DNA of 64,000 nt from Serratia nematodiphila DZ0503SBS1 (GTDB lineage Bacteria > Pseudomonadota > Gammaproteobacteria > Enterobacterales > Enterobacteriaceae): the NCBI RefSeq assembly GCF_000738675.1, contig NZ_JPUX01000001.1:868001-932000 (forward strand), read 5' to 3'. The position numbers were made by a program, and so were the translations under genes. The notes beneath the pieces are model-generated. The model made no database searches. It saw only the letters and a program-made list of their open reading frames with translations, and had not been told where the DNA came from. Within the stretch, counting starts at the first letter, position 1. Every line of letters begins with the position of its first letter. This document shows positions 58,644-64,000 of this stretch, piece by piece.

Positions 58644-59114
58644 ATGACGGCTCAGGTTATCAGTGACAGCGCGGTGCTGGTTCACTTTACGCTGAAACTG
58701 GAAGACGGTTCGACCGCCGAATCCACCCGCAGCAGCGGCAAACCGGCGCTGTTCCGTCTGGGTGACGGCAGCCTGTCGGCGCCGCTGGAAGAGCAACTGC
58801 TCGGCCTGCGCGCGGGCGACAAGTGCGCCTTTACCCTGCAGCCGGAAGCGGCGTTCGGCGCGGAGAACCCGGATCTGGTTCAGTTCTTCTCGCGCCGCGA
58901 CTTCGCGGAAACCGGCGTACCGGACGTGGGCACCATCATGCTGTTTACCGCCATCGACGGCAGTGAAATGCCGGGCGTGGTGCGCGCGGTGGCGGAGGAT
59001 TCGATCACCGTCGATTTCAACCATCCGCTGGCGGGCCATCCGGTGACCTTCGACATCGAAGTGCTGGAGATTGATCCGCAGCAGGAGGAGACGCATGCAA
59101 ATATTGCTGGCTAA
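58644..59114 (+). CDS. fkpB: FKBP-type peptidyl-prolyl isomerase FkpB (SlpA)
   Basis: FkpB is a cytoplasmic SlyD-like prolyl isomerase and chaperone. The 156-residue protein has the split FKBP domain with an inserted flap ([21 protein letters not shown] ... [10 protein letters not shown]) and the C-terminal [21 protein letters not shown]. The ATG at 58644 lies a few bases after AAAGGTGAG; the GTG at 58635 sits inside that signal and is rejected. lspA ends one base earlier. The 3' end overlaps ispH by 20 bases. Confidence 0.95.
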
Positions 59115-60048
59115 CCCGCGCGGCTTCTGCGCCGGGGTTGATCGTGCGATCAGCATCGTGGAACGTGCGCTGGAGCTGTACGGTGCGCCGATCTACGTGC
59201 GACATGAAGTGGTGCACAACCGCTACGTGGTCGACAGCCTGCGTGAGCGCGGCGCCGTGTTTATCGAAGAGATCGCCGAAGTGCCGGACGGCTCTATCCT
59301 GATCTTTTCGGCGCACGGCGTTTCTCAGGCGGTGCGCGCCGAAGCCAAGGCGCGCGATCTGACCATGCTGTTCGACGCCACCTGTCCGCTGGTGACCAAG
59401 GTGCATATGGAAGTGGCGCGCGCCAGCCGCCGCGGCACCGAAGCGATTCTGATCGGTCACGCCGGGCACCCGGAGGTGGAAGGCACCATGGGCCAGTACA
59501 GCAACCCGCAGGGCGGCATGTACCTGGTCGAGTCGCCGGAAGACGTGTGGAAGCTGCAGGTGAAAGACGAAAACAACCTGTGCTTCATGACGCAGACCAC
59601 GCTGTCGGTGGATGATACCTCGGACGTGATCGACGCGCTGCGTCAGCGTTTCCCGAATATTATCGGTCCGCGCAAGGATGACATTTGCTACGCCACCACC
59701 AACCGTCAGGAAGCGGTGCGCAACCTGGCTGGCGATGCGGACGTGGTGCTGGTGGTGGGGTCGAAGAACTCCTCCAACTCTAACCGTCTGGCGGAACTGG
59801 CGCAGCGCGTCGGCAAACCGGCTTATCTGATCGATTCGGCGGCGGATATTCAGGAAAGCTGGCTGAGCGAAGCGCGCAATATCGGCGTTACCGCCGGCGC
59901 CTCGGCACCGGATGTGCTGGTGCAGGAGGTGATCTCCCGCCTGAAAGCGCTGGGCGGCCTGGACGTGCATGAAATCAGCGGGCGTGAAGAGAACATCGTG
60001 TTCGAAGTGCCGAAAGAGCTACGCGTGGACGTCCGTCAGATTGACTGA
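59095..60048 (+). CDS. ispH: 4-hydroxy-3-methylbut-2-enyl diphosphate reductase
   Basis: IspH is the last enzyme of the MEP pathway, reducing HMBPP to IPP and DMAPP with a [4Fe-4S] cluster. The 317-residue protein has the three cluster cysteines in [24 protein letters not shown] and [11 protein letters not shown]. The ATG at 59095 follows AGGAGGAG within the end of fkpB. It ends the ribF operon; an intrinsic terminator follows. In E. coli rihC is next, whereas here an accessory cluster begins. Confidence 0.98.
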
Positions 60049-60320: not shown

Positions 60321-61247
60321 TTATTCTTGTCGAATCTGTTCTAGGTCGTTTAATCCTCTCTCCTTTAAATAGAGCTTCATATGCTCCAGCAATCGCCGGA
60401 CTTTTAATGGCTGGATCTCCCGTCGCGGCATAATGGCATAGCAATTAATTTCCGGTAATCGCCAGTCGGGCAATATTTCAATCAGCTCGCCGCTGCGCAA
60501 CTCTCGCTCGACGTTGGCGAAGAAATTGCGAATGATGCCTTTGCCGGTCAGCGCCAGCTCCTTCATCGCCATGCCGCTGTTGGTGAACAGTCGCCCGGTC
60601 ATGCGCATGCGGTGCTCGCCGCCGTCGCGATGGATCAGGCGAACAAACTGCGGATTGCCGAGCGGCGTAAAGGTGACCCAATGATGATGGGTCAGCGCCT
60701 GCGGCGAATCCGGCACCCCGTGGTGTGCCAGGTAGGCCGGGGAAGCGCACAGCACTTCGCGGCAGCGCGCCAGCCGCGTTGAGACGTAGCTGGAGTCAGC
60801 CAGCGCGCCGCCGCGTATTGCCAGATCGATGCGTTGCGCGATGAGGTCTATTCTCTCATCGTGGATTTCCAACCGCAGCGTGATGCGCGGGTGTTCGTCG
60901 AGGAAGCTCTGCAGCGCCGGCACCAGATAATGGGTGGCGAATTCGGTCGAGGTGGCGACGCGCAGTTCACCGACCAGCTCGCCGCGCAGCGCGGCGATCC
61001 GCTGTTGCCCGCGCTCGGCGGCGTGGATCATCAGCAGACAATCTTCATAAAAGCACAATCCGGCTTCGGTCAGGCTCAATGAGCGCGTCGATCGCAACAG
61101 TAATTGAATGCCCAGATGTTCCTCCAGCTGGCGAATATGCTGGCTGACGGCCGATGTCGTCATGCCCAATTCTTTTGCCGCCATGCTGAATGCGCCACAA
61201 TCGACCACTTTTGAGAAAATGGCCATGCGTTTTAAAATATTGCTCAT
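60321..61247 (-). CDS. LysR-family regulator divergent from the isocyanide cluster
   Basis: The 308-residue protein has the LysR winged helix (about residues 3-62, FSMAAKELGMTTSAVSQHIRQLE) and an effector-binding domain, of the DmlR/AaeR-like subgroup. It reads away from the isocyanide synthase gene with 191 bp between them, the usual layout for a regulator of the neighbouring operon. An inverted repeat GTTAAG-N5-CTTAAC lies just outside its start codon. It is therefore the probable regulator of the cluster; the effector is unknown. Confidence 0.88.
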   Translation of the reverse strand: MSNILKRMAIFSKVVDCGAFSMAAKELGMTTSAVSQHIRQLEEHLGIQLLLRSTRSLSLTEAGLCFYEDCLLMIHAAERGQQRIAALRGELVGELRVATSTEFATHYLVPALQSFLDEHPRITLRLEIHDERIDLIAQRIDLAIRGGALADSSYVSTRLARCREVLCASPAYLAHHGVPDSPQALTHHHWVTFTPLGNPQFVRLIHRDGGEHRMRMTGRLFTNSGMAMKELALTGKGIIRNFFANVERELRSGELIEILPDWRLPEINCYAIMPRREIQPLKVRRLLEHMKLYLKERGLNDLEQIRQE

Positions 61248-61252
61248 AGTTT

Positions 61253-61269
61253 GTTAAGCACAACTTAAC
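61253..61269. promoter_or_regulatory. LysR-type operator (T-N11-A) between regulator and cluster
   Basis: GTTAAG (61253-61258) and CTTAAC (61264-61269) form a perfect 6-bp inverted repeat with a 5-base spacer, satisfying the T-N11-A rule of LysR-type sites. It lies 5 bases from the regulator's start codon, where binding would repress the regulator and could activate the divergent operon. Confidence 0.6.
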
Positions 61270-61438: not shown

Positions 61439-62407
61439 GTGGATAGCGCACAGAAAAAAGAAGAAATAGCATTAAAAATCCTACGTGAATTATTGCAATA
61501 TCGACGTCGCCTCATTGCCGACGATGCTTCTCTGGCTGAAGAAGAGCGGCAGGTCACTCAGGTGCAATTGCCGCGCATTCGGGCATTCATTGAAAACGAC
61601 CAGCGCATCGAATTCGTGCTGCCGGCTTTTCCGACCAAGTCACCCAACGCCAATAAGGTGATAGGCGCGGCGCCGGACATGGCGGAGCGGCTGTCGCTGA
61701 TCTTCCTCAACTCGCTGTGCCAGCGCATTCAACTCTATTACCCGCCGGGCGCGCATATCGTTATCTGTTCCGACGGCCACGTGTTCGGCGATCTGATCCG
61801 CGTCAGCGACGAAGCGATCAACCATTATCAACGTGAGATTGAAAGCCTGCTGCATGAAGTAGGCGCAACCCACCTGAGCGTGTTCAACCTCGGCGATGTC
61901 AAAGGCCTGGCGGAGCATACCGATGACTACGATCTGCTGCGCCGGCTGTTGGTGGACGGCTATGCCGAATCGGAAGAGGCGATCAAGCGCCAGCTGATGC
62001 AGGACGAGCAGGGATTAATGCTGTATCGCGCCATCACGCGCTTCTTGTATGAAGACAGCCAGCTGCCGGGCTACAGCGGTTCCAACGCCGCGCTGCAAAA
62101 AGACGCCAAACGGCGCGCCTGCGGCGTTATCCAGCGCAGCTGGGCCTGGGGCAACCTGCTGGCCCAGCATTTCCCGGCGGCGATCCGCCTGTCGATTCAC
62201 CCGCAGCCGGCCGACAGCCTGAAGATAGGCATCCACATGATGCCGACCAAAGACGACTGGCTGACGCCGTGGCATGGCGTGGCAGCCAACGTGAACGGCC
62301 AGTTCGTGCTGATGAAGCGTAAAGATGCGCAGAGCCTGAACGGCGAATTGGTGGAGATCCGCGGCACGCCGAGCCATTACCTGATCGAACAACCGCAGAT
62401 GGCCTGA
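61439..62407 (+). CDS. isnA: Isocyanide (isonitrile) synthase, PvcA/DIT1/IsnA family
   Basis: Enzymes of this family turn the amino group of tyrosine or tryptophan into an isocyanide using ribulose-5-phosphate as the source of the extra carbon. The 322-residue protein shows the DIT1/PvcA landmarks FPTKSPNANK (64-73), YPPGAHIVICSDGHVFGD (101-118) and RAITRFLYED in the second half. Translation starts at GTG 61439, 6 bases after CAGGAG. isnB follows 96 bases downstream on the same strand. Product specificity cannot be read from the sequence; the isnA-isnB-GT order suggests a tyrosine-derived vinyl isonitrile. Confidence 0.92.
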   Translation: MDSAQKKEEIALKILRELLQYRRRLIADDASLAEEERQVTQVQLPRIRAFIENDQRIEFVLPAFPTKSPNANKVIGAAPDMAERLSLIFLNSLCQRIQLYYPPGAHIVICSDGHVFGDLIRVSDEAINHYQREIESLLHEVGATHLSVFNLGDVKGLAEHTDDYDLLRRLLVDGYAESEEAIKRQLMQDEQGLMLYRAITRFLYEDSQLPGYSGSNAALQKDAKRRACGVIQRSWAWGNLLAQHFPAAIRLSIHPQPADSLKIGIHMMPTKDDWLTPWHGVAANVNGQFVLMKRKDAQSLNGELVEIRGTPSHYLIEQPQMA

Positions 62408-62503
62408 GGCCGCTGCAGGCTTTTGCGCCCGAAATCCTGGCGGACGCGTTTTTGACGGCACGTTGCCGTGTGAGCAGCACATTCGATGCAAGGAGAATCA
62501 CCG

Positions 62504-63367
62504 ATGAATAACCAACCGCTTAATTGCCATATTCAACCGAATACCCCGTTTGGCGCGATCCTGACGCCGCAGCATCCGGGGCAAAAGATCGGCGAACTGC
62601 CGGTGGCAGCGCTGCGGGCGCTGGCGCAGGAGCATCACTTGCTGGTGCTGCGCGGATTCGACTCCGGTTTCAGTGATGGGGAGGTTCTGACGCGCTACGC
62701 CGAGCAGTGGGGCGAGATCATGATGTGGCCGTTTGGCGCGGTGCTGGACGTGAAGGAACATCCGGACGCCAAGGATCATATTTTCGACAGCAGCTACGTC
62801 CCGCTGCATTGGGATGGCATGTATAAGCCGACTATTCCCGAGTTCCAGCTGTTCCACTGCGTGGCGGCTCCGTCGCCGGACGAAGGCGGGTGCACGACCT
62901 TCGTCGACACCACGCGCTTGCTGGCCAATACGGACGAAGCGTTGCTGGATCAGTGGCTGTCGGTCTCGATCACCTACCGCATCAAGCAGGTGGTGCATTA
63001 CGGCGGTGAAGTCTGTTCGCCGCTGGTGGTGCAGCACCCGAACGGCAGGGGCTTGATCATGCGCTACAATGAACCGCCGACGGAGGGGAAAAAATTCCTC
63101 AATCAACATGCGCTGGAATATCACGGCGTGCCGGAACAACAGCAGGAACAGTTCCACCACACTCTGCAGCAGCATCTGTACGATCCGCGTCACTATTATG
63201 CCCACCAATGGCAACAGGGCGACGTGGTGGTGGCGGACAACTTCTCGCTGTTGCACGGCCGCGAGGGCTTTACCGCCCGTTCCGCGCGTCATTTGCAGCG
63301 CGTGCATATTCAGAGCAACCCGGTGTGCGCCAATCTGGCGCTGAAGCCGGCTAACGCAGAAGCGTAA
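62504..63367 (+). CDS. isnB: Fe(II)/2-oxoglutarate-dependent oxygenase, PvcB/IsnB type
   Basis: PvcB/IsnB enzymes act on the isocyanide acid made by PvcA/IsnA, giving decarboxylated vinyl-isonitriles or related products. The 287-residue protein is a TauD-like jelly roll with the iron ligands His102, Asp104 (PLHWDGM) and His251 (SLLHGRE), and a 2-oxoglutarate-binding Arg262. The ATG at 62504 is 8 bases after AAGGAG; the ATG at 62486 precedes that signal. The gene ends 9 bases before the glycosyltransferase, so they are cotranscribed. Confidence 0.92.
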   Translation: MNNQPLNCHIQPNTPFGAILTPQHPGQKIGELPVAALRALAQEHHLLVLRGFDSGFSDGEVLTRYAEQWGEIMMWPFGAVLDVKEHPDAKDHIFDSSYVPLHWDGMYKPTIPEFQLFHCVAAPSPDEGGCTTFVDTTRLLANTDEALLDQWLSVSITYRIKQVVHYGGEVCSPLVVQHPNGRGLIMRYNEPPTEGKKFLNQHALEYHGVPEQQQEQFHHTLQQHLYDPRHYYAHQWQQGDVVVADNFSLLHGREGFTARSARHLQRVHIQSNPVCANLALKPANAEA

Positions 63368-63376
63368 AGGAGCATT

Positions 63377-64000
63377 ATGGCAAGGATATTGATGGCGGCA
63401 GTCGCCACTCCGGGGCACGTTTACCCGATGTTGGCCATCGCTCGCCACCTGATTGCCCAAGGGCATCAGGTGCGGGTGATGACCGGCGCGCTGTTCCGCG
63501 AACGCGCCGAGGCGGTGGGCGCGAGCTTCGTGCCGTTCGACGCGCAGGTGGATTTCGATTACCGCCACCTGGAGCAGCACTTCCCCGAGCGCGCCGCCCT
63601 GCCGCCGGGCAATGCACAGATGGCGCTGGCGCTGAAAGATTTCTTCGCCGCGCCGATCCCGCTGCTGGATCGGCAACTGCGTGCGACTATCGCTGCCGAA
63701 GACACCGATCTGCTGATGGTGGAGAACTGCTTCTACGGCGTGCTGCCGCTGCTGCAGTCCGCCGAACGGCCGCCGGTCTTCGGTATCGGGGTCACGCCGC
63801 TGTCGTATTCCTCGCGCGACGCCATTTTCTATGGCCCGCGCATCCCGCCGGCGCTGCTGCCGCAGGCGCTGACCCGTGAGCAGCTGGTGGATGAAGAAAC
63901 GCGCGTGCTGCTCGATGAGGTGCAGCAGAGCTTCGATGTGGCGCTGGTGCAGGCGGGGGGACGGGCGCTGGATCGCCCGTTCACCGATGCGTTGATCGGC
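63377..64000 (+). CDS. GT1-family glycosyltransferase, N-terminal part (runs off window)
   Basis: The frame opens with ATG 63377 after AAAGGAG and stays open for 208 codons to the window end. The N-terminus MARILMAAVATPGHVYPMLAIARHL is that of GT-B enzymes of family GT1 (macrolide/UDP-glucuronosyl transferase type), with His14 at the position of the catalytic base. GT1 enzymes glycosylate small hydrophobic acceptors. The nucleotide-sugar-binding C-terminal half lies outside. Placement directly after isnAB suggests that it glycosylates the isonitrile product, as in rhabduscin-type clusters. Confidence 0.88.
   Translation, partial: MARILMAAVATPGHVYPMLAIARHLIAQGHQVRVMTGALFRERAEAVGASFVPFDAQVDFDYRHLEQHFPERAALPPGNAQMALALKDFFAAPIPLLDRQLRATIAAEDTDLLMVENCFYGVLPLLQSAERPPVFGIGVTPLSYSSRDAIFYGPRIPPALLPQALTREQLVDEETRVLLDEVQQSFDVALVQAGGRALDRPFTDALIG

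Follow-up and report, generated by a model that had tools for sequence, protein, structure and literature searches.

What does the isonitrile gene set behind ispH in Serratia make? The question is raised by a 64,000-nucleotide stretch of the Serratia nematodiphila DZ0503SBS1 genome (G000:C1:868001-932000 of 5.22 Mb; hereafter the window, although the sequence past its end was read too), in which isnA, isnB and a glycosyltransferase (GT) gene follow one another at the right-hand end. A preliminary description of the window had proposed a glycosylated isonitrile and left the identity of the product open. The proposed class is still the best supported one, with three gene types in one operon, while the identity is contested rather than simply open, since an iron-chelating isocyano-coumarin has already been reported for what is almost certainly the same locus in Serratia marcescens CH-1 (PMC5109203). 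From the comparisons described below, the operon is probably a complete, vertically kept set of genes for a glycosylated vinyl isonitrile of the rhabduscin type. The isnAB homologues of S. marcescens have been noted before (PMC6386379). Among the matches listed from the open-licence literature, judged by titles and abstract openings, none was recognised as describing rhabduscin or another glyco-isonitrile from Serratia, or as challenging the coumarin assignment. A review of swarming inhibitors (PMC7027876) uses the term ICDH-coumarin twice.

The three genes and their predicted chemistry

By its profile matches, IsnA is a member of the L-tyrosine isonitrile synthase family. It scores 631.6 bits against the equivalog model NF045653 (curated cut-off 600) and 281.7 bits against PF05141 (cut-off 26.4), and profile matches this strong are not chance. 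It is also homologous over nearly its full length to the solved structures 9dhm, 9dh4 and 3e59. Enzymes of this family join the amino nitrogen of L-tyrosine with a carbon of ribulose-5-phosphate to form tyrosine isonitrile (PMC7949033), and IsnA would take this first step. A profile search of this genome, confined to PF05141, found no second gene of that family.

IsnB belongs to the TauD/PF02668 family (162.4 bits, cut-off 27). Its best structure match is PIsnB of Photorhabdus luminescens (7TCL, 396 bits), against 281 bits for PvcB of Pseudomonas aeruginosa. The iron triad HxD...H, formed by H108, D110 and H257, and the carboxylate-anchoring R272 are found in all 26 Serratia sequences, and so are K114 and N195, equivalent to K107 and N188 of PIsnB (residue numbers follow the 293-residue reading from 62486). 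At these two positions vinyl-isonitrile formers are reported to carry K/R and N/H while isocyanoacrylate formers carry L and C, and the marker residues correctly predicted the product of a previously untested enzyme (PMC9467999). The Leu and Cys of the PvcB type do not occur in any of the 26 Serratia sequences. Outside Serratia, K/R plus N is present in 40 of 41 IsnB rows, and the remaining one, a Pseudomonas (P. mangiferae) PvcB, has L and C. Serratia IsnB is predicted from these residues to be of the vinyl-isonitrile (PIsnB) type, not of the PvcB type; it would desaturate tyrosine isonitrile with loss of CO2 and give 4-(2-isocyanovinyl)phenol. Translation likely starts at the ATG at 62504 (287 residues) rather than at 62486, because four of the 26 Serratia sequences have an in-frame stop just upstream; a good ribosome site is present at 62504. 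The 26-row counts use this corrected start, with which four Serratia rows having another start choice were regained. Rows omitted as short or broken were isnA, isnB, GT and lysR of PL152, isnA of carotovorum and lysR of brasiliense.

The third gene is a GT in all 26 Serratia carriers. Its product matches PF06722 (72.9 bits), PF03033 and PF00201, and the closest solved structures by sequence are the calicheamicin transferases CalG4 and CalG1, at low similarity. H14, a histidine of the kind that usually serves as the catalytic base, and an Asn-Gly-Gly motif are conserved throughout the 69 GT rows, some of which are near-duplicates. This enzyme would transfer a deoxysugar to the phenol, using a deoxythymidine diphosphate (dTDP) donor, most likely dTDP-4-acetamido-4,6-dideoxygalactose (Fuc4NAc) from the enterobacterial common antigen route, and the product would presumably be rhabduscin or a close analogue. 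Compounds of this kind are inhibitors of tyrosinase/phenoloxidase-class copper oxidases.

The isnB stop codon overlaps the ribosome site of the GT gene, which argues for a single operon of three genes, whose co-transcription we infer from the spacing. The preliminary description had seen here a PvcA/DIT1-type isocyanide synthase, a PvcB-type Fe(II)/2-oxoglutarate oxygenase with intact HxD...H ligands and a GT1 glycosyltransferase, in tight order on one strand and cut by the window end. All three genes are borne out by the profiles and lie on the plus strand, the oxygenase being of the named family with its subtype sharpened to PIsnB, and the transferase being a 424-residue GT-B enzyme of the EryCIII/MGT type. 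As it had supposed, the last gene continues beyond 64 kb; behind it come a stem-loop and dapB, and no longer cluster starts there (Table 1).

Known clusters and the sugar donor

Rhabduscin is made by Xenorhabdus nematophila and P. luminescens (PMC6386379; PMC13005658). Serratia has the gene set of a rhabduscin cluster, with isnA and isnB joined in one operon by a homologous GT gene, and the X. nematophila cluster (XNC1_1221-1223) has the same three genes in the same order. Against 19 Xenorhabdus loci (X. nematophila not among them) the Serratia proteins are 68-72% (IsnA), 52-57% (IsnB) and 54-57% (GT) identical, while the Serratia flanking genes ispH, dapB and LysR are unmatched there. Against Photorhabdus the values are 68-72% for IsnA, 58-61% for IsnB and 62-64% for the best GT copy in each of eight genomes, but the Photorhabdus GT genes, unlike those of Serratia, stand outside the isnAB loci. 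Seven of these eight genomes (G225-G232, L115-L130) carry two or three GT copies, mostly adjacent, which possibly serve different sugars or acceptors. Pectobacterium has isnA-isnB-GT with IsnA 72-77% and full-length GT 65-69% identical to Serratia, in a neighbourhood that differs from that of Serratia; only isnA was found at two of its loci (L019 and L059), and L053 and others are cluster pieces. The Pseudomonas pvcABCD cluster with ptxR, read in P. mangiferae (L050), is more distant: PvcA is 61% and PvcB 46% identical, the LysR protein encoded nearby is 31% identical, and a PvcC-like and a cytochrome-like gene (judged by eye) stand where Serratia has the GT.

The IsnA tree (66 rows) and the GT tree (69 rows, without outgroup) agree in three arms: Xenorhabdus, Photorhabdus, and Serratia together with Pectobacterium as sisters. 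X. nematophila is absent from the rows and is placed by genus. The IsnA tree was rebuilt without two very long outgroup rows (Phaseolibacter and P. mangiferae) which had broken up Serratia, and in the rebuilt tree each of the four genera (Serratia, Pectobacterium, Xenorhabdus, Photorhabdus) holds together as a group. For the GT tree the best match per locus was used with some near-duplicate rows, and this tree does not separate the second Photorhabdus copies cleanly. Since known producers lie on two of the three arms, the same product on the Serratia arm is the simplest reading.

In a sample taken across the family, the transferase was found in 8 of 198 genomes (three of them Serratia) and in 5 of 154 genera. 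One genome of another genus of the same family, G125, encodes a GT that shares 70% identity with the one at the window end (L098:7166-8446) with no isnAB in the surrounding 16 kb, and this GT falls beside Pectobacterium within the Serratia and Pectobacterium arm. On another contig the same genome has two neighbouring distant IsnA homologues of 39% and 31% identity (L132 and L133; G125:C26:267706-270407). Perhaps another isonitrile pathway shares the transferase there.

Rhabduscin (C17H20N2O5) carries a 4-acetamido-4,6-dideoxyhexose, and Escherichia coli obtains such a donor through its common-antigen route. E. coli supplied with the Xenorhabdus cluster makes rhabduscin (PMC6386379). In the present genome the RffG, RffH, WecE and WecD families are all represented above a cut-off by genes lying together, and WecE exceeds its cut-off in 28 of 30 Serratia genomes, including all 26 carriers. 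A supply of 4-acetamido-4,6-dideoxyhexose donor would therefore be available, and dTDP-Fuc4NAc is the donor that we infer for the GT. A second WecE-like transaminase above the curated cut-off is encoded at G000:C1:776612-777736 (L114), about 420 kb from the common-antigen cluster.

The sugar could instead be alpha-L-rhamnose on the same aglycone, as in byelyankacin, the known alternative from Enterobacter sp. (PMC10420840). RmlC and RmlD do exceed their cut-offs in 14 of 30 Serratia genomes, the same 14 for both. The dTDP-L-rhamnose route seems to be missing, however, from 12 of the 26 carriers (this genome and 11 others), because both enzymes fall below their cut-offs there, yet these carriers keep the GT; in this genome the profile search gave no RmlC match and a best RmlD match of 51.6 bits against a cut-off of 224. 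From this distribution a sugar from dTDP-Fuc4NAc is more likely than rhamnose, and a byelyankacin-type product is very improbable.

The coumarin assigned to the CH-1 locus

In S. marcescens CH-1, "sma0021, annotated as pvcA" and "pvcABC" (GenBank KC291199) have been studied (PMC5109203). Counted from thrA (36443) in the window, isnA is gene 21, the genes, nhaR among them, being named by eye and the numbering convention assumed. Because of this position and of the single IsnA (PF05141) in the genome, isnA almost certainly corresponds to sma0021, and the CH-1 pvc cluster is almost certainly the orthologous locus. As published, it differs: it is described as an ICDH-coumarin pathway, and the main text of the paper has no word beginning with "glycosyl" (PMC5109203).

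Several points weigh against a rhabduscin-type product in Serratia, and the first is the CH-1 compound, the only chemistry of this locus found in print. It was assigned as ICDH-coumarin, an iron chelator, by liquid chromatography-mass spectrometry and nuclear magnetic resonance of an overexpressing strain; overexpression of pvc enriched it and it was not seen in the deletion mutant; and, when purified, it was reported to chelate Fe3+ and to restore swarming of that mutant (PMC5109203). Single changes at either IsnB marker position left the product unaltered (PMC9467999), and the marker residues therefore correlate with selectivity without fixing it alone. In its C-terminal (donor) half, the Serratia GT shares only 54-56% identity with the Xenorhabdus and Photorhabdus enzymes, no characterised member of the Serratia and Pectobacterium arm was found, and, in trees that have no outgroup, the sugar may have changed along the Serratia arm. 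Finally, the supernatant of Serratia entomophila Mor4.1 showed no phenoloxidase inhibition (PMC6386379), S. entomophila not being named among the loci compared here. As to the host, rhabduscin-cluster products inhibit insect phenoloxidase, but X. nematophila without the cluster killed Spodoptera undiminished (PMC6386379). Because the cluster is dispensable for Spodoptera killing and the Mor4.1 supernatant is non-inhibitory, an insect-host role of the Serratia operon would be a guess.

On the CH-1 data, the operon would make ICDH-coumarin (paerucumarin), which would chelate Fe3+ and turn RssAB signalling off, with the GT as an accessory gene. Besides the compound evidence and the near-certain identity of the locus, this account could draw on an HpaBC pair encoded about 78 kb upstream of isnA, which could hydroxylate the ring in trans. 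The gene content argues against it, because the third gene encodes a GT and not a PvcC monooxygenase, no dedicated pvcC was found, and IsnB is of the PIsnB and not the PvcB type in every one of the 26 carriers. A search of the genome at E up to 1e-5 gave no dedicated PvcC monooxygenase; the sole PvcC-like match is HpaB-2, which is 44% identical, scores 1082 bits against a cut-off of 885 and is encoded in the hpa (4-hydroxyphenylacetate) catabolic cluster. None of the three operon genes encodes a PvcD homologue, this comparison being confined to the operon and the genome not having been searched for PvcD. The published spectra fit the structure imperfectly, too. The quoted m/z of 204.03023 in negative-ion electrospray ionization corresponds to [M-H]- of C10H7NO4, two hydrogens above the C10H5NO4 of ICDH-coumarin, and five one-proton singlets are listed (PMC5109203) against three C-H protons in the structure as read here. 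Computed values for C10H5NO4 are 202.0146 for [M-H]- and 204.0291 for [M+H]+; the latter is close to the quoted value, and a mix-up of ion modes in the text of the paper is possible. Taken with the gene content, we consider ICDH-coumarin an unlikely product of the operon.

Both sets of observations could be reconciled if the native product is a vinyl-isonitrile glycoside and strong overexpression diverts the pathway into catechol or coumarin shunts through HpaBC or other hydroxylases, so that a shunt compound was isolated in the 2016 study. The strain that yielded the purified CH-1 compound did overexpress the cluster, under an arabinose promoter (PMC5109203), HpaBC is present, and the 26 of 30 genomes with isnA are also those with a PvcC homologue. 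PIsnB in vitro, however, gave mainly the vinyl isonitrile with a minor hydroxylated product (PMC9467999), and this combination, a conjecture so far, also appears unlikely.

Inheritance, regulation and possible role

Table 1. Features at the isonitrile locus (window coordinates, continued past 64000)
Feature	Position	Strand	Remarks
ispH	59071-60048		lies before the LysR gene
LysR-family regulator gene	60321..61247	-	PF00126 75.1 bits, PF03466 125.9 bits
Perfect dyad GTTAAG-N5-CTTAAC	61253..61269		candidate LysR box, 5 bp upstream of the lysR start
isnA, L-tyrosine isonitrile synthase (by profile)	61439..62407	+	322 aa, GTG start; NF045653, PF05141
isnB, Fe(II)/2-oxoglutarate desaturase, predicted PIsnB type	62504..63367	+	287 aa from the likely start; TauD/PF02668; longest reading from 62486
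GT gene, GT-B glycosyltransferase, EryCIII/MGT type	63377..64651	+	424 aa; PF06722; window stops at 64000
Terminator-like stem-loop with T run	~64673-64692		just 3' of the GT gene; 8 pairs, 7 of them G-C
dapB	start 64915		followed by carA and carB

With the sequence past the window included, the order is ispH, the divergent LysR gene, isnA, isnB, GT, the stem-loop, dapB, carA and carB. The stem-loop behind the GT gene is likely a terminator; a terminator scan, which returned 4 sites against 3.5 in shuffled sequences and so lends this assignment no weight, is uninformative because the two counts are so close.

The preliminary description had taken the cluster for an insertion after ispH, in a genus with many insect pathogens. 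An insertion marking out an insect pathogen is not supported: isnA is carried, in one copy each (E up to 1e-20), by 26 of 30 Serratia genomes, and the order lysR-isnA-isnB-GT is identical in all 26. The four genomes without isnA are reduced ones of 1.5-3.6 Mb, in which no cluster remnants were found above noise within at most 1.5 kb on each side of dapB, a span reaching ispH in two of the four. The isnA copies of this genome and of Serratia ureilytica share 98% identity. The block is preceded by ispH in 25 carriers, and the exception, L079, begins near a contig start; dapB lies behind the GT gene, inside the stretch fetched, in 21. In L078, L079, L080, L091 and L092, the 2.9-3.6 kb read behind the GT gene holds other DNA and no dapB was found there, and in L011, which shares a contig with L092, it lies about 5 kb behind. 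The ispH side of the operon is thus constant across Serratia and the dapB side variable. In E. coli, rihC presumably occupies the space between ispH and dapB.

By the median ratio of nonsynonymous to synonymous substitution rates (dN/dS), isnA (0.049), isnB (0.060) and GT (0.119) are under purifying selection, the reference values being 0.039 for ispH, 0.078 for dapB and 0.051 for carA. Divergence tracks that of ispH, with r = 0.83 for isnA, 0.89 for isnB and 0.93 for GT, although the pairs are not independent. Carriage by 26 of 30 genomes, purifying selection and distances tracking ispH together argue that the operon is an old, inherited trait of the genus which is absent from the reduced genomes, and a local or recent insertion is rejected on the carriage and the divergence. 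Spread by plasmids was rejected as well, the relatives in the plasmid collection (13 records) all being below 60% identity. An apparent stop inside isnA of G003 is merely an earlier natural stop, and the gene is intact with 312 residues from the aligned start.

The LysR gene stands beside isnA in all 26 carriers. The arms of the dyad between the two genes are intact in 25 of them and differ in L096, while the 5-base spacer varies (CACAA in 13, TTCAA in 11 and TACAA in one). No other perfect match occurs in the 64 kb, and a single further site has one mismatch (20340); by chance, 0.02 would be expected at up to one mismatch. The dyad suits a LysR-type site, and the divergent LysR protein is a candidate regulator of the operon. 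In CH-1, RssB~P binds upstream of pvc and represses it, the bound stretch running from -349 to +38 of pvcA, and cells deleted for the cluster swarm with a delay and form more biofilm (PMC5109203). If the spacing is alike in CH-1, that stretch would cover the dyad. Expression in Serratia may thus be held down by RssB~P, as found by others in CH-1, and probably tuned by the LysR protein at the dyad.

The cluster type is already known, and the new value of this locus lies in questioning a published product assignment. The published account of swarming and biofilm control in S. marcescens is built on its assigned product, a coumarin iron chelator; if the locus makes a copper-oxidase inhibitor of the rhabduscin type, the mechanism of the RssAB loop would need rethinking. 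Inhibition of the human alternative complement pathway is a further activity of the rhabduscin aglycone (PMC4683029). We see about an even chance that a glycosylated vinyl isonitrile, and not an isocyano-coumarin, is the product of the Serratia "pvc" locus and a core trait of a genus dwelling in soil, on plants and in the clinic, linked by RssAB with swarming and biofilm, perhaps by way of copper or iron enzymes or of metal sensing. If so, a candidate inhibitor of tyrosinase/phenoloxidase would belong to each of the 26 non-reduced Serratia genomes in the search, and a class of compounds studied mainly as insect-immunity blockers of nematode symbionts would become a genus-wide trait.

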